A stretch of 43,085 bases of DNA from an uncultured Butyrivibrio sp. (GTDB lineage: Bacteria > Bacillota > Clostridia > Lachnospirales > Lachnospiraceae): positions 1 to 43,085 of the forward strand of contig CAMORK010000016.1 in NCBI GenBank assembly GCA_946623755.1, given 5' to 3'. The position numbers and the translations under genes are program-made. Shown piece after piece: positions 11,809 to 39,855 of this stretch. Position 1 is the first letter of the stretch, and every line of letters starts with the position of its first letter. The notes under the pieces are model-generated. The model made no database searches. It was not told where the DNA came from and was given only the letters and a program-made list of their open reading frames with translations.

Positions 11809-13017
11809 ATGGGAAAAATTACAGAGTATTTAAAAAGTGCAATTAAACAGATAATAGGCAACGGATACAGGACCATTATGACCATGCTGGGCATCGTCAT
11901 AGGTATTGCTGCGGTTATTGCGGTGGTTTCCCTTGGAAACGGAATGAGCGCTTATGTAAAGAATTCACTCAACGACCTTGCTGGAAACTACGGTATTATC
12001 AGCATAAACACTGCCAAGACAGCTGAGAGATTCACAAGAGATGACATGGAAAAAATAGAGGAAGTTCTTCCTAATATCAAGGGAGTATCTCCGAATCTGT
12101 CAGCATACGGAAATGTAAAGGGCAGAAAGAAAACGGTAAGCACCAGTATCAATGGTGGGTCTCCGGCTCTTGAATATTCATATAGCAACGGAATCGTCAA
12201 GGGGTCATATTTTACACAGCAGCAGGTGGATTCCGGTTCCAGAGTATGTGTCATGCTTTTGGATGATGCCAAGGAACTGTTCGGAACCGAAGATGCCATC
12301 GGCTTTGATGTTGACATAACGGTCTGGGGTAAGACATCCACCTATACTATAGTAGGACTTCGTGATCACATGAATGACATGTATCAGTTTCTTATGGCAG
12401 GACAGGACTACAGTGCTCAGATAGAGGTTCCCTACACTGCGCTTGGTGCAGATTATGATATAGGTACCGAGAATTTTGAGCAGCTCGTTCTTTTTGATGA
12501 ACAGGACACACTGGCAGAGTCTGTGGAGAGGGCCAAAGACGTAGTTGCCAACGCCCATAACCTGAGAGGGTCTTCTGCTCTTACAGCCCAGAGTATGGCG
12601 GATTTCTCGGATCAGCTTGATCAGATTCTGGGCTACGCCAGCAAATTCCTTATTCTTGTTTCGGTAATTTCTCTTATCGTAGGCGGAATCGGAGTCATGA
12701 ACATTATGCTGGTTTCCGTTACAGAGAGAACCAGGGAAATCGGTATCAGGAAGTCCATAGGTGCATCGACGGGAGCAATAATGACACAGTTTCTGGCAGA
12801 GGCAGCCATTCTTACATTCCTCGGAGGAATAGTAGGAATAATCTTAGGTATATTGGCAGCCTATGTGATCTGCAGTGCCATCGGCTTCGATGTCATAATC
12901 ACTCCCACATCTGTCGTTGGGGCAGCCGTTTTCTCAGTCATGATAGGTCTTTTCTTCGGAATCTATCCCGCCAGAAAAGCAGCAACCATGAAACCCATTG
13001 ATGCACTTAGATTATAG
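11809..13017 (+). CDS. MacB/FtsX-type ABC permease, first copy
   Basis: 402 residues. The N-terminal TM (about 20-42) precedes an extracytoplasmic MacB-PCD-like domain (about 45-260). Three TM helices follow in the FtsX domain, with GGIGVMNIMLVSVTERTREIGIRKS, the coupling-helix signature (the stretch here is longer than 20; key residues are GGIGVMN and ERTREIGIRK). The start lies 5 bases after the adaptor stop with only a weak RBS, so translation is probably coupled. The last eight codons and stop are duplicated 146 bp downstream. It pairs with the second permease to form a heterodimer. Confidence 0.93.
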   Translation: MGKITEYLKSAIKQIIGNGYRTIMTMLGIVIGIAAVIAVVSLGNGMSAYVKNSLNDLAGNYGIISINTAKTAERFTRDDMEKIEEVLPNIKGVSPNLSAYGNVKGRKKTVSTSINGGSPALEYSYSNGIVKGSYFTQQQVDSGSRVCVMLLDDAKELFGTEDAIGFDVDITVWGKTSTYTIVGLRDHMNDMYQFLMAGQDYSAQIEVPYTALGADYDIGTENFEQLVLFDEQDTLAESVERAKDVVANAHNLRGSSALTAQSMADFSDQLDQILGYASKFLILVSVISLIVGGIGVMNIMLVSVTERTREIGIRKSIGASTGAIMTQFLAEAAILTFLGGIVGIILGILAAYVICSAIGFDVIITPTSVVGAAVFSVMIGLFFGIYPARKAATMKPIDALRL

Positions 13018-13023
13018 AATCAC
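12988..13023 (+). repeat. 36-bp direct repeat, copy 1 (end of first permease gene)
   Basis: ATGAAACCCATTGATGCAC and the following 17 bases, ending TAGAATCAC. It encodes the C-terminal MKPIDALRL and stop of the first permease. It matches copy 2 at 13134-13169 with a single difference (A versus G, just before the TAG). Confidence 0.95.
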
Positions 13024-13137
13024 GCATATACTGCGTGATTCGTAAGAAAATGAATCAGTAGTGAGGGGCAATCATTTGCGAAGCAAATTCTAATATTGCC
13101 CCGAATCATTGCCATAAGCGGAAGCGAATGGCAATGA
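13017..13137 (+). repeat. Small hairpin-rich element between the two permease genes
   Basis: Three consecutive perfect inverted repeats. (1) GAATCACGCA/TGCGTGATTC (13017-13041, 5-base loop). (2) GGGGCAAT/ATTGCCCC (13065-13102) enclosing ATTTGC/GCAAAT. (3) TCATTGCCAT/ATGGCAATGA (13106-13137, 12-base loop). None has a T-run, so they are not classic terminators. The structured stretch is bracketed by the 36-bp direct repeats, as for a small inserted element (REP- or MITE-like) or an mRNA processing/stability structure in the operon. Confidence 0.75.
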
Positions 13138-13169
13138 AACCCATTGATGCACTTAGATTGTAGAATCAC
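13134..13169 (+). repeat. 36-bp direct repeat, copy 2 (non-coding duplicate)
   Basis: Copy of the permease 3' end at an offset of 146 bp, followed directly by the RBS region of the second permease. It would restore the original junction TAGAATCAC-TATAAAAGG if the 146 bp were removed. It contains a cryptic open stretch ending MAMKPIDALRL and stop, probably not translated. Confidence 0.95.
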
Positions 13170-13186
13170 TATAAAAGGAACTATAA

Positions 13187-14404
13187 ATGGGAACATTTGG
13201 AGAGTATATAAAAAGTGCTCTGTCAAGCATCAGAAACAATAAGGGACGATCTTTTCTGACAATGCTTGGCATCATCATAGGAATTTCGGCAGTACTGGTC
13301 GTGCTCATCATAGGTGATGGCATGAAGGCTACTGTGAACAGCGAGATTGACTCCATGGGAGCCAGTTCTATTTCTGTTACTCTGGATGACACCAAGACAG
13401 ATAAGAGATTTACCAGGAGTCAGTTAAAGGCTATTGAAGAGAATATCGATGGAATTTATGGTATATCTCCAAGCTTTACTGTGTGGGGCAATGCAAACAG
13501 CAAAAGGGGAGAGGGATTTGAACTCTTTATTACGGGCGGAAGTGAATCCTCTGAGACAGCTAGTGGTATCAAGATGCTCCATGGAAGGTACTACAACAGC
13601 TCTGATGTGGAGGATGGTAAGCAGGTCCTTGTAGTCAGCCAGTCGTTTGCAAGAAACATCTTTGGATACGAAGAGGTAGTTGGTGAAACACTGGATGTGA
13701 CTGCTTATGACATCACCAAGGAGTTCATGATCGTTGGAATAAGAGAGGATACTCCGATGGACATAGCTTTTTCAAGCTATGGCGAGGACATCATCCTTAC
13801 TGCAGATGGACCCTACACTTCACTTGCTGAGGCTTACGGCTTTGATATGGATAACATGTTTAATTCCTTTACCATATATCTCGACAGTGAAAACAGAAAT
13901 GAGGTTCTTGGTAAGGCAAGATCCGTGGTGGAGAATGTCACGGGACTCAGAGGAGAGAATGCCGTCAAGATATCATCGGGCTCCGGCTTTGATGAGACCA
14001 CAAACTCGATCCTTGACATCATAACCTCGGTTGTTGCCATAATTGCCGCCATATCTCTTTTGGTAGGCGGAATCGGAGTTATGAATATCATGACGGTTTC
14101 GGTTACTGAGAGAACGAGGGAGATCGGTATCAGAAAATCCCTTGGCGCCAGGACTTCTTCAATACTTACTCAGTTTTTGGCAGAGGCATCAATCCTTACT
14201 TTTACCGGAGGTATAATAGGAATCATCTTTGGAATCACGGTTTCATTTATCATCTGCAAGATAATTGATTTCTCATTCTCGGTAAACCCTGTTCTTGTAG
14301 CCGCTGTAGTTGCAATCTCGACTTCCATAGGCCTGTTCTTTGGTATCTATCCTGCAAAGAGGGCGGCAAATCTTGATCCTATAGAAGCTCTTCGTAACGA
14401 ATAA
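13187..14404 (+). CDS. MacB/FtsX-type ABC permease, second copy
   Basis: 405 residues, same architecture as the first permease and clearly paralogous: N-terminal TM (about 20-42), extracytoplasmic domain and a three-TM FtsX domain. Key residues are GGIGVMNIMTVSV and ERTREIGIRKSLGAR. The C-terminus is GIYPAKRAANLDPIEALRNE. AAGGAAC lies before the ATG. It completes the exporter. Two non-identical permeases suggest a heterodimer such as YknZ-like or bacitracin/lantibiotic-type peptide exporters; there is no immunity or peptide gene nearby to name the cargo. Confidence 0.93.
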   Translation: MGTFGEYIKSALSSIRNNKGRSFLTMLGIIIGISAVLVVLIIGDGMKATVNSEIDSMGASSISVTLDDTKTDKRFTRSQLKAIEENIDGIYGISPSFTVWGNANSKRGEGFELFITGGSESSETASGIKMLHGRYYNSSDVEDGKQVLVVSQSFARNIFGYEEVVGETLDVTAYDITKEFMIVGIREDTPMDIAFSSYGEDIILTADGPYTSLAEAYGFDMDNMFNSFTIYLDSENRNEVLGKARSVVENVTGLRGENAVKISSGSGFDETTNSILDIITSVVAIIAAISLLVGGIGVMNIMTVSVTERTREIGIRKSLGARTSSILTQFLAEASILTFTGGIIGIIFGITVSFIICKIIDFSFSVNPVLVAAVVAISTSIGLFFGIYPAKRAANLDPIEALRNE

Positions 14405-14462
14405 TATAATATGAATAAAGCTTAATTAGCTGTCTTAAAAGAGCAAGAGGAGGAATGGAGTA

Positions 14463-14963
14463 ATGGCCAAAACTTATAAATTCGAGCAGGAGAGGAAGTT
14501 TTTAAAGGCAGGTTATTTCATGACAGATCAGGATGGAAACATGGTCTATGAGGCAAAAATGCTGACTCAGCCTCTGATCGGAGCCTACGATTTTGACTTT
14601 ATCAATCATCTGACAAACAGAACTGAATCCCACAAAGTGTCCAAAACCGTAACAGTGCAGATGAATGAGGGATTAAATACGAAATCCTGGTTTAAACTCA
14701 ATGGGGAGAATATCTGGGACTATCTTCACGAACTTGGTATAAGGATCGATTCACATATGAGTAAGGATAAGTTCGGTCTGACCTACAACGTGACCTTAAA
14801 GGGCCAGCCTATGGCCGTGATCGCAACATCATCTCCCGGCGGTAAAAGTCCCATCACTGTAAAAAATTTCCTGGATGTGACAGTTGAAGATGACAAGGAT
14901 CTTGATCTGGCATTTCTGGTTGCCTTTGCATCCGCAAGGACAGAGCAGTCTTTCCTCAGTTGA
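14463..14963 (+). CDS. LURP-one/Tubby C-terminal-like beta-barrel protein
   Basis: 166 residues, no signal or TM. An alternating strand pattern starts with a short YFMTDQDGNMVYEAK hairpin and ends with a hydrophobic helix (DLDLAFLVAFASAR), as in the LURP-one-related/Tubby-like fold, where one central helix is wrapped by a 12-strand barrel. The Pfam assignment is by appearance only. AGGAGGAA lies shortly before the ATG. It sits 58 bases after the exporter and 94 bases before the 1195-residue gene. A TATAAT just before the latter suggests a separate transcript, so linkage to the cassette is possible but not shown. In bacteria this fold is associated with membrane or phospholipid-related roles; function unknown. 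Confidence 0.6.
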   Translation: MAKTYKFEQERKFLKAGYFMTDQDGNMVYEAKMLTQPLIGAYDFDFINHLTNRTESHKVSKTVTVQMNEGLNTKSWFKLNGENIWDYLHELGIRIDSHMSKDKFGLTYNVTLKGQPMAVIATSSPGGKSPITVKNFLDVTVEDDKDLDLAFLVAFASARTEQSFLS

Positions 14964-15009
14964 TGCATTGTTTTTATCATCTCCCCGGAACTTGCTCTGC
15001 CTTATGCTG

Positions 15010-15015
15010 TATAAT
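15010..15015 (+). promoter_or_regulatory. Probable -10 box of the Hsp70-like cassette
   Basis: Perfect TATAAT preceded directly by TG, 42 bases before the GTG start of the first cassette gene. The nearest -35-like TTGCTC (14992-14997) gives too short a spacer (12), so the -35 is uncertain. Confidence 0.4.
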
Positions 15016-15057
15016 GTGGTATACTTAAAGATGATTATCAAAGTTTTGGGGTGAATC

Positions 15058-18000
15058 GTGAGAGAGATTATTGATCAGCTTTTACAGGGGAAATATATGT
15101 ATGCCCAGAGAAGTTTAGACTTCTCGACGGGTCGTGTTGAGCTGAGTTTGGAGCCCGGTGAGGTTGTCGAAGGCTCTTTTACCATATTCGGACCTGAGAA
15201 TACTCCGGTATATGGTCATATTTCATCAACAGAGATCAGAATGGAAGTCCTCACAGGGGATTTTTCGGGATCCCCTTATGAGGTTTCTTACAGATTTAAT
15301 GCTGTCGGAATGTCTCAGGGAGATGTTCTTAAGGGACAGTTCAGGATCATATCCAATCAGGGAGAGTATGAGCTCCCTTTCGTAGTCACTCTGCAGCTGG
15401 ATCACATTGCATCGAGCCTGGGTGATATCAAGAATTTATTTCACTTTGCAAATTTAGCCAAGACTGACTGGGATGAGGCGGTAAACCTCTTTTATTCCCA
15501 TGACTTCATTTCAGTATTTAAAGGCAATGATGCCCAGTATGAGAGTCTTTACAGGGGGCTTTGCATAAATCCCGACAATGTCCAGAATGTGGAGGAGTTC
15601 CTTATCTCCATAAACAAGAAGCAGCCGATGCAGTTTATGCTGGATCAGGAAGAGCTGCAGATAGATTTTACAGGGCTATCCCATGAGCACGGGATTATAA
15701 TCACCAGAAGCGGTTGGGGCTATACGCATCTTTTGGCTGATGTGGACGGTGACTTTATTACCCTGGATAAGTACGAAGTGGGTGAGGACGACTTTACGGG
15801 CTCTACCTGCAGGCTTAAGCTCCGCCTTCGGACTGATAAGCTCCATGAAGGTAATAATTTTGGCAGGATCACTTTTTATAATGGTTTTGTGAAGGTGGTA
15901 TTACCTGTCACCGTATCTGTCGAACTTGAACAAAGGCATCTGACAGCCGACTATCAGGAGATGAAGAAGCTCACTGTCGAGCTGGTCAGGGTGTATGAGA
16001 ACTTCAGCTGCAAGAAGATAACTTCAAGAGCATGGCTCTCAGAGACCGGCAAGATAATCGCCAAGATGAATGCCATCGATGACAAGAATCTGGAAGTAAG
16101 GCTTTATACAGCGCACTATTACATCACAGCCGGCAGGACCAATGAGGGTAAGTGGATCCTCGATAAGGCAGCAGGGGAGGCACTTGATGCCCCGGGAGAT
16201 ACACTTTACAGTTATTATCTCTACCTGACAACACTCTGCAGCAGAGAAGATGCTTTTATAAACGATGTTTCCGAAAGGCTTGAGGGGATTTTCAGAAGAA
16301 ATCCCGACAACTGGCGTATTGCCTGGCTTCTTCAATATATTTCTGAAGAGTATTCGACCAGTACTCCAAGGAAGTGGATGATGCTGGAAGAGCAGTTCAC
16401 ATTTGGCTGCAGGAGCCCGATACTGTATCTGGAGGCCATGAATCTTCTCAATGATTCGCCTTCAATACTGACGCATCTTGATGATTACGAACTCTATGTC
16501 CTGGAATACGGTGCCAAGAAACAGATAATAAGTCTGAACCTGATAGACCAGATAGTTTATCTGTCTGTTCGTGTACGTAACTTTAATCCAAGGCTTTTCA
16601 GAATACTTAAGGCCTGTTATGAGATCAAGGAGAATGATGAAGTTCTTGAAGCCATCGTCTCGCTGCTGATAAAGGGCGGCAAGACCGATGCTTTTGCTTT
16701 TGAGTGGTACCAAAGAGGCGTCGACAGGGAGCTCCGCATCACCAGACTCTACGAGTACTATATGATGTCCATCTATACTGATGAGAACGGACTTCTGCCA
16801 TGTGAGATCAACAAGATGGTACTGATGTATTTTTCGTACCAGAGTGATCTTGAATATGACAAAAATGCAATACTTTACAGATACATTCATGAGCACAGAG
16901 AGGATTATCCTGAGCTCTACGAGTCGTACGTTCCTCAGATCGAGAAATATCTTATGGCTCAGCTGGACAAGGGAAGAGTCACCAAGGACCTTGGCTATCT
17001 TTACAAGAACCTTCTTACAAGGCAGATGGTTGATGCCGCTAATGCATCCAAGGTGCTCTCGGTTCTTTATACCTCTCAGATCATTGTTCCGGACAAAAGA
17101 GTTAACGGCGTAATTGTTGTCTATGACAAGTGCGAGAGAGAAATGCGTTATCCGGTAGTTGACGGAGAGGCTTTTGTTCCGCTGTACGGCAGTGATTATG
17201 CAGTTCTTTTAACAGATCACGAAGACAACAGGTATGCATCAAGCATCCCATACTCCAACATAAGGCTCATGCTTCCCGGTAAGCTGGCTTCTTATGCTAT
17301 TCCGTATATCCAGAAGGGAAAAGAGAATCTGGATCTGTTTTTGTGCGATCTGGGCAAGAACGCGTATACCATCGATATGGACAATGTGGGCAGATATCGT
17401 GATCTGGCAAGTTCAGAGCTTGTGCGTGGCAGCTGCAGAAATGAGATAAGGGGTAATCTTGTTCATTTCTACTATGACAACGACTTTACAAGGCAGCTCA
17501 CTGAGTATCTGCTTGATATAGACCCAAGAGACCTTACGACTGCTGAAAGGGGAGAAATACTGGAGCTTATGGTAATGGCAGGGCTCTATGAACGATCTCT
17601 TGAGTGGATCAAGGAATACGGGACCTATGGCATCGACGCCAAAGTTATCTTAAGACTCTGCGTAAGGCTTATGGACAGAGGCCTTTTTGAGTACGGGGCA
17701 AAAGAGCTTGAGATCGCCCACTACTCATTTGTTAACGGCAAGTATGACGAGCAGCTCCTTGGCTATCTGATTGCAGGATTTAACGGTACGATCAAGGAGA
17801 TGAGGGACATCTGGAAGGCTGCTGAATCCTTTAGCATTGACAGTTATTCTCTCTGTGAGAGGATGCTGGTTCAGATGCTCTACAGCGGATCATATATAGG
17901 TGAGAAGATCGATATATTCAGAAACTACGTAAACAGCGGTGCCAATACCGATATTGAGATGGCTTTTCTGACACAGAGCGCCTATGATTATTTCGCTCAC

Positions 18001-18645
18001 GGCACTGTAACTGACAGATATATTTTTGACCGCATTGAGAGGCTTACACAAGAGAACCTGCCGCTGGCTGAAGTGTGCAAGCTGGCTTACCTGCGCTACT
18101 ATGCAACAGATAAGAAATCTGACGAGGAGATCAATGAGGAAGTGGCTAAAGGCTTCATGAGAAAGCTTTTGTCAAAAGATATCTTCTTCCCGTTTTATAC
18201 GGAGTACGAGGATCTGCTTCCCGATATGGTGCAGTTTATTGATAAGACAATGATAGAGTACAGAACAGCTCCGGGAAGGCACTGTATCGTTCATTACAGG
18301 CTGGACAATGATGCGTATGGTGAGTATAAGACCGCGGAGATGAGAGAGATGTTTGACGGTATTTTTGTCAAGGAGTTCGTTCTCTTTTTCGGTGAGCAAA
18401 TGCAGTATTACATCACTGAGGATGAGCAGGAAGAAGGCGCTTTGACAGAGAGCGGAACTATCCAGAAGAGTGATATCACGGGTGGTCATTCCGTGGGAAG
18501 ATACAGCCTTATAAATGATGTAATGATCGGGGAAACCCTTCAGGATTATGATACTGTGGATAGTCTGATCGCGGAGTATTTCAAGAAAAAATATATCTGC
18601 GAGAAACTGTTTTCACCGCTGGAGAGGCAGGATGAATCACAGTGA
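15058..18645 (+). CDS. Giant DUF5717-like protein (1195 residues), beta-sandwich plus helical solenoid
   Basis: Starts at GTG 15058 behind GGGGTGA. Two similar beta-sandwich modules can be seen: residues about 15-120 (with LSLEPGEVVEGSFTIFG) and about 190-290, separated by a short helical segment. From about 300 to 680 it is a helical-repeat solenoid (pairs of amphipathic helices, TPR/HAT-like). A beta insert follows at about 680-790 (VNGVIVVYDKCEREMRYPV), then more helical repeats to the end. No signal peptide or TM helix. From memory it matches the Lachnospiraceae family DUF5717; I cannot check this. It heads a cassette with an Hsp70-fold protein, a TPR-like protein and a membrane coiled-coil protein, so a cytoplasmic scaffold role is inferred. 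Confidence 0.85.
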   Translation: MREIIDQLLQGKYMYAQRSLDFSTGRVELSLEPGEVVEGSFTIFGPENTPVYGHISSTEIRMEVLTGDFSGSPYEVSYRFNAVGMSQGDVLKGQFRIISNQGEYELPFVVTLQLDHIASSLGDIKNLFHFANLAKTDWDEAVNLFYSHDFISVFKGNDAQYESLYRGLCINPDNVQNVEEFLISINKKQPMQFMLDQEELQIDFTGLSHEHGIIITRSGWGYTHLLADVDGDFITLDKYEVGEDDFTGSTCRLKLRLRTDKLHEGNNFGRITFYNGFVKVVLPVTVSVELEQRHLTADYQEMKKLTVELVRVYENFSCKKITSRAWLSETGKIIAKMNAIDDKNLEVRLYTAHYYITAGRTNEGKWILDKAAGEALDAPGDTLYSYYLYLTTLCSREDAFINDVSERLEGIFRRNPDNWRIAWLLQYISEEYSTSTPRKWMMLEEQFTFGCRSPILYLEAMNLLNDSPSILTHLDDYELYVLEYGAKKQIISLNLIDQIVYLSVRVRNFNPRLFRILKACYEIKENDEVLEAIVSLLIKGGKTDAFAFEWYQRGVDRELRITRLYEYYMMSIYTDENGLLPCEINKMVLMYFSYQSDLEYDKNAILYRYIHEHREDYPELYESYVPQIEKYLMAQLDKGRVTKDLGYLYKNLLTRQMVDAANASKVLSVLYTSQIIVPDKRVNGVIVVYDKCEREMRYPVVDGEAFVPLYGSDYAVLLTDHEDNRYASSIPYSNIRLMLPGKLASYAIPYIQKGKENLDLFLCDLGKNAYTIDMDNVGRYRDLASSELVRGSCRNEIRGNLVHFYYDNDFTRQLTEYLLDIDPRDLTTAERGEILELMVMAGLYERSLEWIKEYGTYGIDAKVILRLCVRLMDRGLFEYGAKELEIAHYSFVNGKYDEQLLGYLIAGFNGTIKEMRDIWKAAESFSIDSYSLCERMLVQMLYSGSYIGEKIDIFRNYVNSGANTDIEMAFLTQSAYDYFAHGTVTDRYIFDRIERLTQENLPLAEVCKLAYLRYYATDKKSDEEINEEVAKGFMRKLLSKDIFFPFYTEYEDLLPDMVQFIDKTMIEYRTAPGRHCIVHYRLDNDAYGEYKTAEMREMFDGIFVKEFVLFFGEQMQYYITEDEQEEGALTESGTIQKSDITGGHSVGRYSLINDVMIGETLQDYDTVDSLIAEYFKKKYICEKLFSPLERQDESQ

Positions 18646-18688
18646 GCGCCTATGTGCGCTACCGGTAACTGAGGAAGGATGATGTTTT

Positions 18689-19990
18689 ATGCTTTTTGGA
18701 AATTCTGATACAAGGCGCTTTGTGCTGGGATATGATCTGGGTGATAAGGTCTCTCAGATAAGCTTTCTGGCGTCTGATGCGGACATGCCTGAAACCCTCT
18801 CAGTGCTCGCCGGCTCAGAACAATATAATATTCCCACCGTTCTCTGCAAGAGAAAAGAGGTTAATCAGTGGTTTTACGGCAAGGAAGCCGCAAGGCACAT
18901 AGAGGACGGGGACGGATATGAGGTTAGGGGACTGATCTCCAAGGCCAAGGAAGGTAAGCCTGTTGTAGTCGGAAATACGGAATACGATCCCATAGCTCTT
19001 TTGACTTTGTTTGTAAAAAGAAGCTTATCCCTCCTTTCAATGGAGGTGTCTCTTGACAACGTCGATGCGGTCATGTTTACTGTCCGAAGCCTTGATCACA
19101 GGATGGTACAGGTTCTCAATGCAGTAACTTCAGTCCTTGAGCTGGGAACTTCAAATGTTTTTTACCAAAGTCATGAAGAGAGCTTCTACAACTATATGCT
19201 CTATCAGCCTGATGATCTGACACATCACACGATCCTGGCCTGTGACTATGATCATGAAGAACTGTCCGTATATGAGATGGCTCTTAACTACAATACAAGG
19301 CCTGTTGTGGCAACTATAGATGTCAAGACCTTTGATGATCTGTGGCTGGATAAAGGTGAATTTCCTACTGATGCAGCTCTTTTCCACAAGACATGTGAAA
19401 GACTTGATGACGAGTTTTTGACTATTATGCAGAAAATCTGCGGTGAGAAGGTAATATCTACGATATTCCTGCTTGGTGACGGCTTCAGAGAGAAATGGCC
19501 AAAGAGATCTCTTGAGTATCTGTGCAGGACCAGAAGAGTTTTCCAGGGCAACAATCTCTTCAGCAAAGGCGCCAGCATTGCGGCAAGAGAGAGAATACGC
19601 CCCAGTGGTAATTCTTCGAGGTTTGTATTTTTGGGCGAGGACAAGCTCAAGTCAAATCTTGGAATGAAGCTTTTAAAGTGCGGGACCGAAGTATATCATG
19701 CTCTTCTTGATGCCGGTGTAAACTGGTATGAGGCGGGCACAAGCCTGGATATAATAATGGATCCCAGCGGTATTCTGAATATCGAAGTAACGCCCCTTAC
19801 CGGCAAGATGCCCAGAATAGTTCAGCTGTATCTTGACGGGCTTGAAAAAAGGCCCCCCAGGGCTACAAGGCTTCGCATTGAGCTCAGTATGGGAAGCGTA
19901 AATGAAGTAAACGTCAAGGTCACAGATCTTGGCTTTGGCGAACTGTTCCCGGCTACCGGCAAGGTGTGGGAACAGACGATAGAGGTGTGA
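18689..19990 (+). CDS. Hsp70/actin-fold ATPase-like protein (possibly DUF5716 family)
   Basis: 433 residues. Actin/Hsp70 superfamily landmarks in order: phosphate-1 loop GYDLGDK (14-20), a strand pair at the phosphate-2 position (ILACDYDHEELSVYEM, about 182-197), an adenosine-type motif (IFLLGDGF, 259-266) and SKGASIAA (292-299), equivalent to the VARGAA of DnaK. The phosphate-2 loop lacks the usual DxGGGT glycines, so ATP turnover is uncertain. A beta C-terminus (about 330-433, ending VTDLGFGELFPATGK) could be a reduced substrate- or partner-binding domain. GAGGAAGGA precedes the ATG. It is 43 bases after the 1195-residue gene and 6 bases before the next, clearly one operon. The DUF number is a recollection, not a search result. 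Confidence 0.75.
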   Translation: MLFGNSDTRRFVLGYDLGDKVSQISFLASDADMPETLSVLAGSEQYNIPTVLCKRKEVNQWFYGKEAARHIEDGDGYEVRGLISKAKEGKPVVVGNTEYDPIALLTLFVKRSLSLLSMEVSLDNVDAVMFTVRSLDHRMVQVLNAVTSVLELGTSNVFYQSHEESFYNYMLYQPDDLTHHTILACDYDHEELSVYEMALNYNTRPVVATIDVKTFDDLWLDKGEFPTDAALFHKTCERLDDEFLTIMQKICGEKVISTIFLLGDGFREKWPKRSLEYLCRTRRVFQGNNLFSKGASIAARERIRPSGNSSRFVFLGEDKLKSNLGMKLLKCGTEVYHALLDAGVNWYEAGTSLDIIMDPSGILNIEVTPLTGKMPRIVQLYLDGLEKRPPRATRLRIELSMGSVNEVNVKVTDLGFGELFPATGKVWEQTIEV

Positions 19991-19996
19991 TAATTT

Positions 19997-20839
19997 ATGA
20001 GCAGACCAATTCTTTGCATAGGACGATATGCAGAAAATCCATATCATATAGAGAAGATTGGCAGAAACGTATACTGCATAGAAGAGCTATGTTACTGCAT
20101 AGTTCAGAATGCATTCCTTCTTGATGAAGAGAGTTTTGGCAGGGAGCTCTTTGACTGGATAGACAATGAGTGCTGCCTTGAAAAGCTCGCTGATGAACTA
20201 AGGGCTATGGCTGCCAAGAGGTGCTCCATGGCATCCCTGGCGGGGACAATCCTTGATTATGTCGGCTACAACACCAGGAAAGAGGTTGATAAGACTGAGG
20301 AAATCCTAAGGGGCAACGCCGGAATGGACATCTACCAAAAAAAGCTCCAGAGAGCAGATTTCCTCATGAAGAATGACAAATATACAATGGCCTTCAGGGA
20401 ATATGAATTTCTTTTACATAATACTCCCGATATCGACAGCAAGCTAAGAGCGTATATCGAGCACAATGAGGGCGTGATGTACGCAAGGCTGTTTTTGTTT
20501 GAAAAGGCAGCAGAGAGGTTTAAGACAGCCTTTGAGGATGGCGGAGATAAGGAATCATATCTGCAGTATCTTGCAGCTGTCAGGATGAATCTTTCCAACA
20601 AGGAATATGTATCCTTTATTGCGGATTCCGATGAGGCCTATGAGGCTTCCATGGAGCTCGAAGGCAGGATGAATGAGGCAGAGGAGCTCTACGCATCCAG
20701 CGAGGATAATCTGATGGTCAGAACAATGGCTCTTTATAAAGCAGAGAGCAAAATGCATGAATATTATGATCAGGTGGGAGAGATCACCGAAGAAATGAAA
20801 CTCACATACAGAAATCTTGTAAAAGATAAGGTGAAATGA
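19997..20839 (+). CDS. TPR-like helical protein of the Hsp70-like cassette
   Basis: 280 residues, soluble. The N-terminal 100 residues start RPILCIGRYAENPYHI and are Cys-rich (six Cys in the first 75, including CCLEKLAD). From about 110 to 210 come TPR-like helix pairs: ADFLMKNDKYTMAFREYEFL, EHNEGVMYARLFLFEKAAERF, and a further pair with KESYLQYLAAVRM. It begins 6 bases after the Hsp70-like stop and its stop overlaps the next start (ATGA), the tightest coupling in the window. TPR partners of Hsp70 proteins are co-chaperone-like, so a functional pairing with the upstream ATPase-fold protein is plausible; not shown. Confidence 0.75.
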   Translation: MSRPILCIGRYAENPYHIEKIGRNVYCIEELCYCIVQNAFLLDEESFGRELFDWIDNECCLEKLADELRAMAAKRCSMASLAGTILDYVGYNTRKEVDKTEEILRGNAGMDIYQKKLQRADFLMKNDKYTMAFREYEFLLHNTPDIDSKLRAYIEHNEGVMYARLFLFEKAAERFKTAFEDGGDKESYLQYLAAVRMNLSNKEYVSFIADSDEAYEASMELEGRMNEAEELYASSEDNLMVRTMALYKAESKMHEYYDQVGEITEEMKLTYRNLVKDKVK

Positions 20840-22017
20840 TGGGCTTATTTGATTTCTTTAGGAACGATGACAAACAGGACGAGTGGGTAAAGCAGACTGG
20901 GCTCCAGGACTGGAACGATATTGTCTATACCAGAAAAGATGTGGACATGGATGATCCGGTTCAGCGAAGGGAGTATATCGGAAGCTGCCTTGCTCAGATG
21001 CAGGAGGCATCCAGAGAGCTTGATGCCCTTGAAGCAGAGTACAACGATGTAACATCGCGCCTTCGTGACATGGAGGAGATTGATGCGCTTCCGCCGGAAC
21101 AGCGGGAAGAGATCAACGAATGTGCCAAGAAGATACTGGAATCTCAGGAACAGCAGGAAAAATTCGACAAGCGCAAGAGCCGCATGAGCGATGAGGAATT
21201 TGAGCATATGGAGAGACTTCAGTCAGGAGCCAAAGAGGGCGCCAGGAAGCTGGCTGAAGCTGAGGAATATCAGAAGAAGATCAGAAACGATCTAAAGCGC
21301 CTTGATAGTGAACGTGAGGCATATCTGTTTCAGGAGGATGAGATCCTTACTACGGTTGAAAACGACAGAAAGCTTATCATTGCAATATCCGTTGCGCTGG
21401 TTGTGATCGTGGTGTTCCTTTTGTTTTTGCAGTTGGGACTGGGACTTAATGTTATCTACGGATTCATGGTGACATTCCTGCTTGCGGCGATTTCGGTTAC
21501 GTATCTTTATATCCATCAGAGTAACACAGCATCGGAGCTAAAGCTCGTTACCAAGTCGATCTCAAGGCTCATCATGCTCCAGAACCAGGTTAAGATCAGG
21601 TATGTCAATAACACCAATCTTATAGATTATCTGTGCCTTAAGTATGGAGTTAATACGTCAAAAGAGCTTACCGGCATGTATGGCAAGTATCTTCAGGAGA
21701 GAAACGAGAGAGCCAAGGTAGAGGATGCCAGAAAGCTTCTGGATTCCAACCAGAAGGACCTGATCTACATGCTCCGTCACTTCAGGGTCAAGGATCCTGA
21801 CATATGGATACATCAGGCAGAAGCGCTCCTTGATCACAACGAGGAGGTTGAGATAAGGCACAACCTTAATGTGCAGCGCCAGTCCCTCAGAAAGCGCATG
21901 GAATATAACCGCGATATCGTGGCCGGTAATGCCAAGGCTGAGATTGAGGACATGGCTCGCCAATACCCCAAATATACACAGGAAATTCTTGACATGGTAT
22001 CCAGGTACGATGACTGA
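20836..22017 (+). CDS. Two-TM coiled-coil membrane protein of the Hsp70-like cassette
   Basis: 393 residues. A cytoplasmic coiled-coil arm (about 45-175, very rich in Glu, Lys, Gln and Arg) leads to two adjacent TM helices (about 180-200 and 205-226, separated by only a few residues). A second helical/coiled-coil arm (about 228-393) follows. Both arms are therefore on the same, presumably cytoplasmic, face, with a hairpin in the membrane. This looks like a membrane anchor for the cassette's soluble proteins. The ATG overlaps the previous stop by 4 bases, and a second Met follows immediately. A strong terminator follows, closing the operon. No family recognised. Confidence 0.8.
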   Translation: MMGLFDFFRNDDKQDEWVKQTGLQDWNDIVYTRKDVDMDDPVQRREYIGSCLAQMQEASRELDALEAEYNDVTSRLRDMEEIDALPPEQREEINECAKKILESQEQQEKFDKRKSRMSDEEFEHMERLQSGAKEGARKLAEAEEYQKKIRNDLKRLDSEREAYLFQEDEILTTVENDRKLIIAISVALVVIVVFLLFLQLGLGLNVIYGFMVTFLLAAISVTYLYIHQSNTASELKLVTKSISRLIMLQNQVKIRYVNNTNLIDYLCLKYGVNTSKELTGMYGKYLQERNERAKVEDARKLLDSNQKDLIYMLRHFRVKDPDIWIHQAEALLDHNEEVEIRHNLNVQRQSLRKRMEYNRDIVAGNAKAEIEDMARQYPKYTQEILDMVSRYDD

Positions 22018-22022
22018 CCGGG

Positions 22023-22053
22023 GCCTTTGCAGTTTTGCAAAGGCTTCGTTTTT
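22023..22053 (+). terminator. Terminator closing the Hsp70-like cassette
   Basis: GCCTTTGCA (22023-22031) and TGCAAAGGC (22036-22044) form a perfect 9-bp stem with a 4-base loop, followed by TTCGTTTTTT. Confidence 0.92.
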
Positions 22054-22160
22054 TATGTGACAGTTGTGTGATACTTCGGGTGATAATATTACTTCAAGAT
22101 AAAACAAACCAGACAAAACGAAGAACTGATTTCAGACTTCGAAAGAAAAGGAGATATATT

Positions 22161-22517
22161 ATGAAAAAGATCATCACCCTGGCAGCATCAATTATTACAT
22201 CTGTTGTTTGTGTATTACAGGTCGCACCGCCTGTGACGTCACTGGCAGCTTCACGCGAAACAGCAAAGACAGCTATGACAGCAGCTCCTATGAAGGAGAG
22301 CGGAGTTGCATCCGGAGTTACCAAACTGCAGGCTCTTGATATCGCATTAAAGCATGCAGGTTATGACATGGAGGATACTCTCTATACAAAGGTTAAAAAA
22401 GATCATGATGATGGCATGGAAGTTTACGAAGTAGAATTCAGGGTTGGATTTGTTGAGTATAACTATGAGATAGAAGTTGCTTCCGGCCAGATCCTGGACT
22501 TTGATTTAGACGACTGA
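22161..22517 (+). CDS. Secreted PepSY-domain protein
   Basis: 118 residues from ATG 22161, preceded by AAAGGAGA. The longer upstream frame from 22035 would run through the terminator and is rejected. A Sec signal peptide occupies about residues 1-30 (MKKIITL, hydrophobic core, SLAA). One PepSY domain follows at about 52-116, with KLQALDIALKHAG and the paired strands MEVYEVEFRVGFVEYNYEIE and ASGQILDFD. PepSY domains act outside the membrane, often as inhibitors or chaperones of peptidases, but no peptidase is adjacent. It is monocistronic, between two terminators. Confidence 0.92.
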   Translation: MKKIITLAASIITSVVCVLQVAPPVTSLAASRETAKTAMTAAPMKESGVASGVTKLQALDIALKHAGYDMEDTLYTKVKKDHDDGMEVYEVEFRVGFVEYNYEIEVASGQILDFDLDD

Positions 22518-22591
22518 AGATTTTCGGTAATACTAAATTGCGACATTATCAAACACTTCTTAATCATAATTTTTCTCTCTCTAAAGGAAGC

Positions 22592-22620
22592 AGAGAGCGC
22601 CTTTTCGGTGCTCTCTCTTT
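22592..22620 (+). terminator. Terminator after the PepSY gene
   Basis: AGAGAGCGCC (22592-22601) pairs with GGTGCTCTCT (22607-22616; one G-T pair) across a 5-base loop and is followed by CTTTT. Confidence 0.88.
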
Positions 22621-22731
22621 TCTATTATCAAAATACGGAAAATCATATTAAAATCACACATCTAACATCTATATTGCGTTTGTGATAAAATGATATATAG
22701 ATAATTATTTTATCTATGCCGGAGGCGCTAC

Positions 22732-25700
22732 GTGGAAAAATATAAATATGACAACACGACATTTGAAATACTGGAAAAGATCAGTTTACCAATTGGGGTG
22801 TATCAGTACATCAATAAACGTCTGGTCACGATCCTTCTTTCAAACGGATTCCTGGGTTTTTATGGCTACGAGGATAAGCAGGATACCTATGATCTTATGG
22901 ATAATGACATGTTCAGAGATATCCATCCGGATGATGTGGCATTTGTTGCTGATGCTACGCACAGATTTCTGGAAAAGGATGATCCATTTGATGTTATATA
23001 CAGATCCAGGATCCATGGAGAGTACAGGATCATACATGCCTATGGGAAACATATATATAAGGAAAACGGCGTAAGACTCGAGGTTTGCTGGTACACAGAT
23101 CATGGTTCATTTGACAAGAATGCGGAATTCAAGAGCGACGGAGGGTTGCTTGCTTCACTGAGTGTTGCCATTATAGAAAGATCCACAAAAAGAACTTTAA
23201 GCTATGATTACCTCACAGGATTTCCTTCAATGACAAATTTCTTTGAGCTTGCAAATGAAGGCTGCAGGAATATAAGGGAAAATGGCAGGATACCTGCAAT
23301 ACTGTTCCTGGATTTCAACGGTATGAAGAGCTATAACCAGAAGTACGGAATGGAGGAAGGAGACCGCTTTCTGGTAGCTTTTTCGAAAATTCTCATAAAG
23401 CATTTCAGCAATCAGAATTGCAGCAGATTCAGCGCGGATCATTTCTGCGTATATACGGATTCTGAAGGTGTTTCAGGTATCTGCGAATCTATAATCGAAG
23501 AGTCGGAGAACATTTGCAGCGGCAGGAGTATGCCCCTGAGAATAGGCGTTTATTACTATGACAATGGGGATGTAACTATAAGTGCGGCCTGTGACAGGGC
23601 TAAGCTTGCCTGTGATTCCGACAAAAAGACCTTTGATGCCCATATATACTATTTTGATAAGTCTATGGTGGCCCAGCTTGAGAAGGAAAGGTATATTGTC
23701 GAAAATCTGGACAAAGCCCTTGAAGAGGAGTGGATAGAGGTCTGCCACCAGCCTATATTCAGAGCTGCCAACGATCATATTTGTAACGAGGAAGCATTGG
23801 CGAGATGGGTGGATCCCGAACGGGGGACCTTTAGCCCCGATGAGTTCATTCCGGTGCTTGAGGAAGCTAACAGTATCTATAAACTTGACCTTTATATGGT
23901 GGACAAGGTTATAGAAAAAATGCAGGGACAGATGGCCCATGGAGTATTTGTGGTGCCGGAGTCTGTAAACTTCTCAAGATCCGATTTCTATACCTGTGAT
24001 CTTGTTGAAGAGATAAGAAGACGTGTAGATCAGTCAAAGCTTGGCAGAGACAAGCTGATAATAGAGATAACAGAGAGCGCCATTGCTGATGATATCGACT
24101 ATATGGCTCAGCAGGTGGCGAGATTTAAGGAACTTGGATTTACTGTATGGATGGATGACTATGGAAGCGGCTATTCATCCCCTGTTGTTTTGCAGAAGAT
24201 TCCCTTTGATCTTATCAAGATAGATATGCTTTTTGTCAGCCAGATTGGTGAGACAAAAAGCAGTAAGATCATAATCACAGAAATTGTAAGAATGGCTATG
24301 GCCCTTGGAATAGAAACCATTGCAGAGGGTGTTGAGAATGAAGAGCAGATGGAGTTCCTAAAGGAGGTAGGATGTACCAAGCTTCAGGGATTCTATTTTG
24401 CAAAGCCTCTTTCTATGAAGGAAATACTTGAGAAGAGGCAGACTATTGATGCTGAGATGTTTGAAAATCCTGCCGAAACGGATTACTACGTTCAGATAGG
24501 TAATGTCAACCTGTATGATCTTTCGATATCAAGGTTCGATGATGATACGCTTTCCAACTACTTCGATACAATGCCAATGGTTTTGACGGAAGTGGATGAT
24601 AAAACCATGTCCATTATCCGTTGTAATCAATCCTTCAGGGAGTTTTTTGAAAAAGCATTCCCGGGACGCCTTTCAAGAAAACAGTTTAAGATAGGCGAAT
24701 ACACCGGATTCCCCGGAGGCTATACATTAAAAGCAATAGTTCAGTGTGCACGGGACGGTCGCAGGAACTTCATTGACGATATAAGCTCAAACGGCATGAA
24801 TATGCAGATGTTCATGAGAAGAATTGCAGTAAATCCAATTACGGATGTGGCAGCAGTGGCACTTGTCATTCTGTCAATTACTGACAATTCCAAGGTTAAC
24901 ACAGGACTCACCTATAATTATATAGCAAGGGCCCTGACGGAGGACTATGTAAACCTGTACTTTGTGAACATGGAATCGGGAGAATTTACCGAGTATACGC
25001 CTGACGGTCTGAACCGTGAAGTTACTGTTGAAAGACACGGCAGGAACTTCTTTGACGAGTGCAAGAAAGATGCTGTGGATAAGATCTTTAAGGATGATCT
25101 TGATGAATTCTTCAGAGTGTTCAATAAAGAGAACATCATAAAGAGCCTTAATACTAACGGCAGTTTTACGCATACCTACAGGATCATGGCGGATGATAAT
25201 CCCGTTTACGTCAACATGAAAATAGTTCCCGTAAGAAACAGAAAAAACGAGATCATAATAGGTGTAAACAACGTTGATGCTCAGATGAAACAAAAAGAAG
25301 CGATGGAAAAGCTCAGGGAAGAGCGCCTTATTTATTCCAGGATCAGTGCTCTTTCCGGAGATTACATGGCTATCTATATCATTGACCCTGAAACGGAAGA
25401 ATATTCACTTTACAGTTCAAAAGAGATTTTTGACGCCCTGGGTACTCCTGAAAAGGGAACAGACTTTTTTGCAAAGACCATCAAATCCGGAGAAAAAGTC
25501 ATATTCAAGGATGATTATCCGGTTTTCTGCAGCAGATTTCAAAAAGAAAATTTATTAACGCGCATAGAAGAAGACGGGATTTTTACATTGAATTACAGAC
25601 TTCTTCTGGATAAAAAACCGGTTTACGTGCAGATCAGAGCAAACCTGATCCATGAGAATTCCGAAGATAAGATCATCATGGGACTTTTAAATGTTGACCG

Positions 25701-26211
25701 TGAGACAAGGAAGGAACAGGAATACAATTTCAATCTGATAGCGGCCAGAGAAGAGGCGAATATCGATGAGCTTACAGGCGTCAAGAACAAGCACGCCTAT
25801 GCAGATATGGAACAGAGCCTTGATAAGGAGATTGCAGGCGGAGCATGTCCGGAAATAGCTATTGCTGCATTTGACTTAAATGATCTGAAACTTATAAATG
25901 ATACAAAGGGTCATCAGGCCGGCGACAAGTATATAAAGGACGGCTGCAGCATCATTTGCAAGACATTTACCCACAGTCCGGTGTACAGGATTGGAGGCGA
26001 TGAGTTTGTAGTGGTTGTCGGTGGCGAAGATTATGACGAGCTTGATGAGATCATGGAGAAAATTGAAAAGATCAACCGGAAGAACAAAGCAAACGGAAAA
26101 GTTGTGATTGCCGCCGGTGCTTCCAGGTTTGCCAGGGACAAGAATATGGCAGCTGTGTTTGAAAGAGCCGATAAAGCGATGTATGAAAACAAAGCCGAAC
26201 TAAAAAAATAA
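22732..26211 (+). CDS. PAS - degenerate GGDEF - EAL - PAS-like - GGDEF c-di-GMP turnover protein
   Basis: 1159 residues, no TM. A PAS_3-like N-terminus (about 30-125, IHPDD) precedes GGDEF-1 (about 155-320), whose signature is SADHF (234-238) and so is probably inactive. The EAL domain (about 325-580) keeps EAL (E354), VNFS, EITES, DDYGSGYSS, KID and AEGVE and should be an active phosphodiesterase. Three PAS-like modules (about 600-1000) follow, two sharing a YxVNMESGE/YIIDPETEE pattern. GGDEF-2 (about 1010-1159) has an intact GGDEF (1088-1092) without an RxxD inhibitory site. Start is GTG 22732 behind GGAGGC. An 8-bp hairpin (ATAGATAA/TTATCTAT, 22697-22717) abuts the RBS. Confidence 0.93.
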   Translation: MEKYKYDNTTFEILEKISLPIGVYQYINKRLVTILLSNGFLGFYGYEDKQDTYDLMDNDMFRDIHPDDVAFVADATHRFLEKDDPFDVIYRSRIHGEYRIIHAYGKHIYKENGVRLEVCWYTDHGSFDKNAEFKSDGGLLASLSVAIIERSTKRTLSYDYLTGFPSMTNFFELANEGCRNIRENGRIPAILFLDFNGMKSYNQKYGMEEGDRFLVAFSKILIKHFSNQNCSRFSADHFCVYTDSEGVSGICESIIEESENICSGRSMPLRIGVYYYDNGDVTISAACDRAKLACDSDKKTFDAHIYYFDKSMVAQLEKERYIVENLDKALEEEWIEVCHQPIFRAANDHICNEEALARWVDPERGTFSPDEFIPVLEEANSIYKLDLYMVDKVIEKMQGQMAHGVFVVPESVNFSRSDFYTCDLVEEIRRRVDQSKLGRDKLIIEITESAIADDIDYMAQQVARFKELGFTVWMDDYGSGYSSPVVLQKIPFDLIKIDMLFVSQIGETKSSKIIITEIVRMAMALGIETIAEGVENEEQMEFLKEVGCTKLQGFYFAKPLSMKEILEKRQTIDAEMFENPAETDYYVQIGNVNLYDLSISRFDDDTLSNYFDTMPMVLTEVDDKTMSIIRCNQSFREFFEKAFPGRLSRKQFKIGEYTGFPGGYTLKAIVQCARDGRRNFIDDISSNGMNMQMFMRRIAVNPITDVAAVALVILSITDNSKVNTGLTYNYIARALTEDYVNLYFVNMESGEFTEYTPDGLNREVTVERHGRNFFDECKKDAVDKIFKDDLDEFFRVFNKENIIKSLNTNGSFTHTYRIMADDNPVYVNMKIVPVRNRKNEIIIGVNNVDAQMKQKEAMEKLREERLIYSRISALSGDYMAIYIIDPETEEYSLYSSKEIFDALGTPEKGTDFFAKTIKSGEKVIFKDDYPVFCSRFQKENLLTRIEEDGIFTLNYRLLLDKKPVYVQIRANLIHENSEDKIIMGLLNVDRETRKEQEYNFNLIAAREEANIDELTGVKNKHAYADMEQSLDKEIAGGACPEIAIAAFDLNDLKLINDTKGHQAGDKYIKDGCSIICKTFTHSPVYRIGGDEFVVVVGGEDYDELDEIMEKIEKINRKNKANGKVVIAAGASRFARDKNMAAVFERADKAMYENKAELKK

Positions 26212-39700: not shown

Positions 39701-39855
39701 CTTTTATCACATCGGGATATGATGGTGTAAATAACGGAATCGTCGGATATTTTGAACACTACAGCGTTGACAGGCTGATCCAGAAGGCAAGGGATTACCT
39801 TCAGGGCGAAGAAATGTCCGATGAGCTTAAGTCGATGTACGGAATAAGCGGTTAA
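36745..39855 (+). CDS. TIR domain - TM - WD40-like beta-propeller protein
   Basis: 1036 residues. The TIR domain (about 3-130) has FNAFISYKHAD, the BB-loop region RDKDELP and W89-V-E-K-E93. The WVxKE pattern matches the catalytic Glu region of SARM1-type NADases. A helical linker leads to one TM helix (about 190-210) preceded by RHRQYKMRR, so by the positive-inside rule TIR is cytoplasmic. Next comes a helical stretch (about 215-270, NQSRNLANQSERLLDE and EAMQLALESLP) seen in nSTAND-, caspase- and TIR-WD40 proteins. About 700 residues of short strands then form propeller-like repeats (WD40/YVTN type). It looks like a surface-sensing TIR effector or receptor; phage defence is possible. Monocistronic. 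Confidence 0.88.
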   Translation: MINHFNAFISYKHADLDNKIAASIVRDLEHFHIPKKIQKATGVKRIERIFRDKDELPITSDLNDTISMALHNADYLIVICSTNTKYSTWVEKEIEVFLQNHTMNQILTVLADGEPNEVIPKCLLTGKKEVVDEDGVKRIVEMPFEPLSCDYRIPYKRAKAEEVPRMVAAIIGCSYDELINRHRQYKMRRLTAVFAGAMALSLGFAGYMLHSNTLIHENYLEALKNQSRNLANQSERLLDEENRIEAMQLALESLPKSEDDEKPVTAEAVRAITKSSRAYVSLAGGNVDAVWNYKMPNHVKQYKLSEKNTYLGALDDNSVVIAWDTKTHKQVLNVENYGDDADDIYFFGDDKLIVKCEESIHAYDLSQEGKEIWVIQDNDYSIPYVHDVFTCSDDAIIVAASTGEIKVVSMKDGQVIQSFDIVGDDPEKDVYISLFDFSEDKGKLAYILMDRTDFSAYTYRLGEYDLTTDTNTVSEEAMVEYVKALTYQGDRIVLACEDESNSSTMLFDFNFVAKGTDFIKCYSSGNLNPEWTSDFTYLDLSEKNEFLPMSGDKIAYAEGDTYRVWDVITGEIIGTYDTNDTIVDISDTDDDGVPMFVTQSGASGTSASLRDVSGVSMSTLFSDDLREAVVKGGVYTLRYMDRQIIYYTSGVYDEDWTRITEVPAYKTGGSFCLDENVLAVFDIAKENPELIFVDPVSKTYLGSAVLSSTVSAYQYKLLGSYEGVFYAVHSEDKKLVLTGVDLNTMQVSTEIICDEYSEYDPVCDMKAGKLVYYGSEDNSYYYVVKRDIATGEETRISLDGKMTGITYFPEKDCAYMATNKEYTISAPTDAIVSFSDEALSYIEMPEQWLNTGYVVLDESGKRIAASDGEKIRILDVNGEFKGEVACNNVSPLGISFKEVGGKELLLVAFDNGTLNRYDAETAEFLGRSDLTVVSMASLYEADMDYDKEQGLLYVQIGTMLDIIETDTWIELTSISNCYGHNKETDTFITSGYDGVNNGIVGYFEHYSVDRLIQKARDYLQGEEMSDELKSMYGISG

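Follow-up and report, generated by a model that had tools for sequence, protein, structure and literature searches.

In yeast, the ribosome-associated complex (Ssz1-Zuo1) contains Ssz1, a non-canonical Hsp70 composed of a nucleotide domain and a beta substrate domain, with the lid missing, which binds ATP without hydrolysing it (PMC7083937). Another point of reference is the DnaK-DnaJ-GrpE system. A further theme is that of the GAP1-N2 GTPase systems, for which a neighbourhood with HSP70, GrpE and a protein of beta-sandwich repeats and TPR has been described (Kaur et al., 2020, PMC7159879). At the level of protein families, Pfam holds DUF5716 (PF18980) and DUF5717 (PF18984 and PF18983), whose one-line descriptions state no function. 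Among the open-licence papers searched, the two families are mentioned once, in a paper that its title marks as unrelated, and, judged by titles and opening lines of abstracts, none deals with an operon such as the one described here.

The window (the whole stretch of 43,085 nucleotides analysed, from an uncultured Butyrivibrio sp. of the Lachnospiraceae) carries a cassette of four open reading frames, all on the forward strand: gene A (15058..18645; 1195 aa, GTG start), gene B (18689..19990; 433 aa), gene C (19997..20839; 280 aa) and gene D (20836..22017; 393 aa). The spacing is 43 bases between A and B, 6 between B and C and -4 between C and D, so the tight layout proposed in the initial annotation is borne out by the coordinates. 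The single strong terminator said to close the unit is a terminator-like stem-loop with a 13-pair stem followed by TTTTTT (22019..22048, forward strand); it is the longest of the 6 terminator-like sites in 13000-23000, but the number of such sites in that interval is not above chance (6 vs 6.4 in shuffles). We consider it probable that the cassette is a housekeeping, Hsp70-derived scaffold complex, the reduced core of a larger machine, in which a hydrolysis-dead pseudo-Hsp70 works in the manner of Ssz1.

The protein of gene B is a member of DUF5716 (346.3 bits vs a cut-off of 34.7), and A is a member of DUF5717 (1100 and 328.9 bits for PF18984 and PF18983, respectively, vs a cut-off of 25), in line with the earlier remark that the families were known at DUF level only. 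B itself has no match to Pfam HSP70 (PF18980 is the sole family found up to E 1) and as a single query finds nothing in the PDB; a profile of B with 39 rows of its sister-family counterpart (Hsp70 #2, described below) finds DnaK at 7.1e-25 and also BiP. The structure model has an Hsp70-type fold whose beta domain is modelled with good confidence, and the 50 Foldseek matches listed for it are Hsp70-type proteins or complexes containing one. By model, Foldseek and profile, B thus combines the nucleotide-type domain and the beta substrate-type domain that define the Hsp70 superfamily; the helical lid is missing, as the modelled chain stops within the beta domain. The Hsp70/actin-like fold suggested for the 433-residue protein is therefore of the Hsp70 type, and the unrelated fold that the initial annotation had named as telling against its proposal is not what was found. 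An unrelated or actin-type fold is ruled out by the Foldseek matches listed and by the DnaK and BiP matches of the profile.

Of the hallmarks of an active Hsp70, B has lost nearly all catalytic Lys, Thr and Glu residues, most of the phosphate loops and the lid. Equivalents of Lys70, Thr11, Thr199 and Glu171 occur in 1, 2, 1 and 0 of 40 alignment rows of B, respectively; the same four are present in 13/13 rows of each of the sister-family Hsp70s #1, #3 and #4. Both phosphate motifs are largely gone from B; 33 of the 40 rows retain the first-motif Asp and all 40 one adenosine-motif Gly. Since the second-motif Asp persists in just 24 of 40, B may have lost nucleotide binding too. Judged from its residues, B is a pseudo-Hsp70 that has shed nearly all positions catalysing ATP hydrolysis and is probably inactive. 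In Foldseek, the B model finds the Ssz1 chain 6sr6_C at 1.8e-16, with an identity of about 10%. Unlike Ssz1, which has a J-protein partner at the ribosome, B has TPR-type proteins as neighbours, and no J-domain protein was found by Pfam among the operon proteins scanned, from the window or from sister families. By analogy, B may work like Ssz1, and it is not a member of the ribosome-associated complex.

Gene A had been described as a 1195-residue scaffold with two beta-sandwich modules and helical repeats. The repeats are supported by the predicted structure and by TPR profile matches, which place a TPR-like helical solenoid at residues 297-1060 (15946..18237, forward strand), with a beta insert near residues 672-737 in the model; the beta nature of the modules is a low-confidence prediction. 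The two N-terminal modules (residues 19-113, 15112..15396, and residues 192-289, 15631..15924; both forward strand) are homologous to each other (hhalign 95.5%). The model has a mean pLDDT of 64.9, with the first 295 residues mostly under 50; this part is unreliable because the alignment behind the model is restricted to the C-terminal two thirds. Foldseek searches with the A model return generic repeat solenoids at TM values of at most 0.25. For a third module in A_N, the N-terminal of the two A genes in the sister families, the evidence is divided: two comparisons gave 56.6% and 60.9%, and another two gave 0.4% and 5.1%.

The window C protein has no Pfam match; TPR repeats are recognised by Pfam in its 393-aa sister relative, which upholds the idea of a TPR-like partner. 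As to the Cys-rich start, Cys7 recurs in 26/29 relatives and Cys32 in 20/29, while the remaining ones of the seven cysteines recur in 2 to 6. Gene D was annotated as a two-TM hairpin with coiled-coil arms. A hydropathy scan finds two neighbouring hydrophobic stretches near residues 174-211 (21355..21468, forward strand), consistent with a hairpin between long polar arms, while the coiled-coil character of the arms is based on weak library matches only. D reaches a convincing score in 65 of 150 Lachnospiraceae genera and is missing in over half, so a membrane anchor is unsupported as a general trait of the set; D is optional. In seven sister loci the gene directly upstream of A_N encodes another long-tailed TM protein, U. 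Homology between U and D was not found (hhalign 0.9%), in a comparison weakened by one unrelated protein in the U set (L043_393). The hairpin and arms of D, together with the position of U, are what might favour an envelope or cell-shape machine, in which D would fix the scaffold to the membrane and B would switch assembly in an actin-like way; given the restriction of D to a minority of genera and the Hsp70-type matches listed for B, we regard such a machine as quite improbable. Of the chaperone, secretion, envelope or cytoskeletal machine initially proposed, the co-inherited unit, the Hsp70 fold, the TPR-type partner and the repeat scaffold stand; no evidence was found for secretion or a cytoskeletal role, the 50 Foldseek matches listed for B being Hsp70-type proteins or complexes with one.

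The neighbourhood survey supports the cassette as a co-inherited unit. Among 150 Lachnospiraceae genera, A was found in 147, B in 145 and C in about 144. Of 42 hand-selected family loci, every one has B next after A, and 41 have C next after B or fused to it, the sole exception (L083) being a contig stretch that stops after B; the A-B-C order expected from the initial annotation is thus kept wherever the contig permits. In one locus (L087), B was masked in ORF calling by an antisense ORF and is present with 417 aa. Gaps of 60 nt or less separate 37/40 measured A-B pairs, 35/35 B-C pairs and 22/22 C-D pairs. Against this, A and B lie on separate contigs in at least 4 of 150 genomes (G009, G039, G051 and G055), and in G084 the contig with C differs from that with A-B, both counted irrespective of contig breaks. 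In G091, A, B and C were not found, and in G029 A and B were not found and the C match is weak; therefore A-B-C is not indispensable. Of 16 comparisons with four congeners, the 11 with unsaturated dS give dN/dS values of 0.06-0.19. Judged from frame lengths, 5 of 145 genera have B and C fused into a single frame (L059-L063, picked because of their long frames, with the rate counted over the 145 genera), and these fusions fall at two places in the B tree. That a common transcript merely serves products with separate functions is extremely improbable, given the fusions, the A-B-C order in 41/42 picked loci and the similar gene order among sister families.

The most telling evidence lies outside the window, beyond the reach of the initial annotation. 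In sister families (Defluviitaleaceae, Vallitaleaceae and others) of the order, a larger operon with active-looking Hsp70s is read from the sequence. It comprises A_N and A_C (which in the window's family are the single gene A), Hsp70 #1, a long GrpE-type protein X, the degenerate Hsp70 #2, #3, #4 fused to a vWA domain, C and sometimes D. The order #1-X-#2-#3-#4-C on one strand is seen in 31 of 60 named sister loci, 24 of these 31 without any intervening ORF; many of the remaining loci are cut by flank or contig end. X frames span 211-276 aa; two of four X proteins match Pfam GrpE (PF01025; 54.6 and 50.7 bits), the other two match nothing in Pfam within the limits applied, and a PDB GrpE is matched at E 0.0034. 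This set resembles DnaK-DnaJ-GrpE in joining Hsp70s to a GrpE-type protein and differs from it in that no J-protein was found, the HSP70 matches end before the lid, scores are far below the DnaK cut-offs, and no CIRCE is seen; the window set differs further in having no active-looking Hsp70 or GrpE. DUF5716_C is matched by #2 at 65.6 bits and by #3 at 42.1 bits, so that #3 also passes the DUF5716 cut-off, and #2 additionally matches Pfam HSP70 (45.1 bits). B resembles #2 most and is its counterpart. In the tree, B and #2 are separated from #1, #3, #4 and DnaK with a support of 100; with #2 not forming one clade and several long branches among B and #2, long-branch attraction is possible.

Hsp70 #1 is present in 29 of 30 sister-family A carriers, and was found in 0/150 family genera, 0/2 intermediates and 0/20 A-lacking genomes. 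The #4-vWA protein was not found in the 150 family genera (best match 48.1 bits, to part of the model only), #3 is absent from the 42 family loci read, and long X was not found in the 150 genera (best score 34.8 bits), the X profile picking short GrpE-sized frames in 17/150 family genomes. The lack of #1 and #4 in the family would also suit B as a structural adaptor, a rigid joint between A and C binding neither nucleotide nor peptide, in a scaffold or signalling hub rather than a chaperone. The largely lost phosphate motifs and the B-C fusions point the same way, yet the retained first-motif Asp and adenosine-motif Gly, along with a well-modelled beta domain, argue for more than a joint, and we judge this reading unlikely.

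Under the preferred reading, a reduced Hsp70-derived scaffold complex, an ancestral-type machine with active Hsp70s would have lost these in Lachnospiraceae and retained the degenerate B beside the scaffold A, the inferred direction being loss in the family and not gain in the sisters. A, B and C would assemble into one complex, in which B may bind nucleotide without hydrolysing it. More tentatively, its lidless beta domain could serve the scaffold as a peptide site of low affinity that works without ATPase activity and might pass clients to the ordinary DnaK or, as in Ssz1, retain one dedicated client. D would tether the complex to the membrane solely in those genera that have it. The wider proposition, to which we give an even chance, is that the order possesses a dedicated Hsp70 machine with as many as four lidless Hsp70 paralogues in tandem, of which one is degenerate and one is fused to vWA, and its own long GrpE-type exchange factor, acting on a giant scaffold whose N-terminal modules are followed by TPR-like repeats, and that one large family stripped the motors to leave an ATPase-independent complex built on a dead Hsp70 and found today in almost all of its genera. 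For DUF5716 and DUF5717, Pfam families of unknown function near-universal in one large family, this supplies an origin and a hypothesis that biochemistry can test. In the sister operon, bacteria would have an Hsp70 system that combines several specialised Hsp70s with a dedicated exchange factor, and the apparent reduction would be, to a degenerate subunit, a natural experiment on what an Hsp70-based complex can achieve without ATP hydrolysis.

The unit would be housekeeping and outside the HrcA/CIRCE heat-shock switch. CIRCE was found in 0/42 family and 0/14 further A loci (test regions of about 460 nt), while 12/12 dnaK control stretches, longer at 4.4-5 kb, were positive; heat-shock control by HrcA/CIRCE was rejected accordingly. 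The fast divergence of A, X, #2 and C vs the conserved #1, #3 and #4, and a sister operon built from the same kinds of parts, recall a module for conflict or defence of the GAP1-N2 type, with which the present set shares HSP70, GrpE and the beta-sandwich/TPR combination (Kaur et al., 2020, PMC7159879). Unlike those systems, the set described here occurs almost throughout one family, mostly as a single copy, and the operon proteins scanned (window and sister) gave no match to a GTPase or to GAP1. PADLOC gave no match for the four window proteins and weak ones for sister proteins, including the Hsp70s (PDC-M61B), C (PDC-M71B), the U tail (ZorA) and D (JetC2). A defence role was rejected on these PADLOC results and the module as such is very improbable; a phage origin was likewise discarded, as viral contigs scanned with A and B yielded no relative. 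As regards chromosomal context, the stretches read around the loci (121 sequences, 61 + 60) include a valS-like gene at 10 family and 4 sister loci and a member of an aminotransferase cluster (exemplar PF00155) at 14 family and 6 sister loci, a possible sign that a minority of loci occupy a common chromosomal position.

Taken as a whole, the reading that the cassette comprises a pseudo-Hsp70 on a TPR scaffold is reasonably probable. The four open reading frames of the cassette (window 15058..22017, forward strand) lie where the initial annotation had placed them, and the intergenic distances of 43 (A-B), 6 (B-C) and -4 bases (C-D) likewise agree with it; a terminator-like stem of 13 pairs with six T residues (22019-22048) closes the unit. 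In Pfam, gene A is DUF5717 over its full length and gene B is DUF5716 (the model spans residues 128-433); no Pfam family was found for gene C and none above the cut-off for gene D, and for the window proteins neither NCBIfam, at its cut-off, nor PADLOC gave a match. The N-terminus of A consists of two mutually homologous modules, which match at 99% the first two modules of A_N, a separate N-terminal gene in other families of the order (a third module in A_N is uncertain), and beyond these modules A continues as a TPR-like solenoid that carries beta inserts.

In these sister families (nine genomes sampled, plus 60 named loci from Defluviitaleaceae, Defluviitalea phaphyphila, Candidatus Epulonipiscium, Petrocella (labelled Vallitaleaceae) and others), a larger operon encodes A_N (~400 aa), the C-terminal counterpart A_C (~890 aa), Hsp70#1 (~557 aa), the long GrpE-type protein X (~565-645 aa), the degenerate Hsp70#2 (456-565 aa when complete), Hsp70#3 (~545 aa), Hsp70#4 (~690-735 aa, with a vWA domain at the C-terminus), C (~387 aa) and, in a minority of operons, D. 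A_N and A_C form a single gene in some loci (e.g., L044, L103). Among the 60 loci, many of which are cut by contig or flank, the labels assigned were #4 (60), #3 (52), C (49), #2 (41), X (37), #1 (35), A_C (28) and D (5); the order #1-X-#2-#3-#4-C was observed in 31 (24 without an intervening ORF). The genes are separated from one another in some termite-gut genomes. Hsp70#1, #3 and #4 match Pfam HSP70 at 236, 206 and 320 bits, respectively; these matches stop short of the lid, at about position 488-501 of 599, and the proteins fall well under the equivalog cut-offs for DnaK and HscA. Hsp70#2 matches DUF5716_C (65.6 bits) and HSP70 (45.1), and #3 also matches DUF5716_C (42.1 bits; cut-off 34.7). 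Sister C carries TPR in Pfam, and two of the four X proteins scanned matched GrpE above the Pfam cut-off. Mean identity is 71-75% for #1, #3 and #4 and 25-35% for A, X, #2 and C. In one genome (G152; L034/L096), Hsp70#4 (198 and 494 aa) and C each occur in two pieces and X is only 279 aa, aligning to X-profile positions 373-622, the location of GrpE; this state would reflect ongoing decay or assembly error. Seven sister loci (L036, L038, L040, L041, L042, L046, L050) carry, less than ~100 bases upstream of A_N, another TM protein (U; 331-482 aa) with hydrophobic stretches at the N-terminus and a long tail, within which one U protein gave weak PADLOC matches to ZorA; U may replace D.

Judged by sequence, B is the counterpart of Hsp70#2, and its origin and motif loss are demonstrated at that level. 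A branch with support of 100 separates B and #2 from #1, #3, #4 and DnaK, although #2 does not group as a single clade and long branches are common. With Lys70, Thr11, Glu171 and Thr199 of DnaK as catalytic reference, all positions examined are kept in 13/13 each of #1, #3 and #4. Hsp70#2 keeps Lys70, Glu171 and Thr199 in 0/13 and the second-motif Asp in 13/13; B keeps Lys70 in 1/40, Thr11 in 2/40, Thr199 in 1/40 and Glu171 in 0/40, together with the first-motif Asp (33/40), the second-motif Asp (24/40) and one adenosine-motif Gly (40/40). The predicted model of B (mean pLDDT 83.1) combines a nucleotide-type domain with a beta domain and is lidless; Foldseek matched it to DnaK (5.8e-20), Ssz1 (6sr6_C; 1.8e-16) and Sse1 (2qxl; 1.5e-14), with query TM-scores of 0.44-0.58 across both domains.

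In the family of the window (taken to be Lachnospiraceae; 150 genomes, one per genus), A is present in 147 genera, B in 145 and C in 145, including one weak match (G029). G091 lacks A, B and C, and G029 lacks A and B; the misses also include three genomes that are 67-69% complete (G020, G128, G146) and G098, where the A fragment begins at base 40 of its contig. D was matched in 69 genera, four of them below 25 bits, which leaves 65 convincing. From the earlier reading of Hsp70, TPR and membrane anchor, the Hsp70-type B and its TPR-type partner stand, but the anchor is not supported as a general feature (65/150 genera). Where found, D has a hydrophobic hairpin followed by a YVN-type stretch, kept across family and sister rows. 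In wider draws, B occurred in 4/249 genomes of the phylum (all four of this family), and A in 122/246 of the order (33 of this family and 89 spread across 15 others; 120 passed the cut-off) and 10/245 of the class (nine of this family, one below cut-off). Therefore, as far as sampled, the system belongs to one order. Of 16 dN/dS comparisons with congeners, 11 were unsaturated, and these gave 0.06-0.19.

Among 42 family loci (the window, L048, L054-L093), hand-picked in part because of weak scores or unusual frame lengths, B follows A in all, if one includes L071, where B is split, and L087, where an antisense ORF had masked it. C follows or is fused to B in 41 (the L083 stretch ends there), and D follows C in 22. 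By frame length, B and C form one frame in 5/145 genera (L059-L063; 684-723 aa); in the B tree four of the fusions make up a single clade and that of L063 is placed elsewhere, so fusion probably happened twice. Across the 150 genera, at least four genomes (G009, G039, G051, G055) carry A and B on separate contigs, and in G084 it is C that is separated from A and B in this way. In L082 (2764-5613, reverse strand), D continues in frame into glutamyl-tRNA synthetase-like sequence (950 aa; second half judged by eye).

Of the remaining sister Hsp70s, #1 and #4 were not found in the 150 family genera. Hsp70#1 was found in 0/150 genera at E 1e-100, and by the same search in 29/30 sister-family genomes with A, 0/2 possible intermediates and 0/20 genomes without A. 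These possible intermediates, L048 (G250) and L051 (G312), encode B and C together with an A_C-like protein (853 or 860 aa) in genomes without Hsp70#1; no A_N was recognised in either, A of L051 being truncated by the contig start. The best family match to #4 reached 48.1 bits; among the matches listed, the top three are confined to the vWA part and most others to the substrate domain, in frames of DnaK size. The X profile matched 17/150 genomes at 18.9-34.8 bits, in GrpE-sized frames (211-276 aa), and #3 is absent from the 42 loci. In the window's genome (60% estimated completeness; the window is contig 16), PF00012 retrieved only one DnaK and one MreB-like protein. We infer that the family lost the active-looking sister Hsp70s, this being simpler than repeated gain elsewhere.

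Gene order, fusions and joint presence suggest that A, B and C would form a physical complex, in which B, given its retained beta domain and likeness to Ssz1, would bind peptide without hydrolysis. Ssz1, of the yeast ribosome-associated complex, is likewise lidless, and binds ATP but cannot hydrolyse it (PMC7083937). Among gene arrangements already described, the closest that we found is the HSP70/GrpE theme of GAP1-N2 GTPase systems (PMC7159879); the operon proteins scanned include no match to the GTPase or GAP1 of those systems. In open-licence literature, nothing relevant to DUF5716/DUF5717 was found by title, nor any multi-Hsp70, vWA or GrpE operon like the sister set by title or abstract; the main text of PMC11019930, on DnaK duplication, does not contain the terms Lachnospir, Clostridia or VWA. 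All 12 dnaK-region stretches, each from a different family genome, contain CIRCE with at most one mismatch; the closest site upstream of A had at least five mismatches in the 42 family loci and at least seven in 14 sister loci.

Elsewhere on the forward strand of the window, a 166-aa ORF without a Pfam family lies directly upstream of A (14463-14963), and an Rfam GA-cis RNA (13058-13142; 37.5 bits, cut-off 34.7) lies between two MacB/FtsX-type permease genes. A 1159-aa protein (22732-26211) carries PAS and, in an unusual order, EAL (324-559) before GGDEF (1009-1156), and a 1036-aa protein (36745-39855) has a TIR/ThsB-TIR-like domain at its N-terminus.
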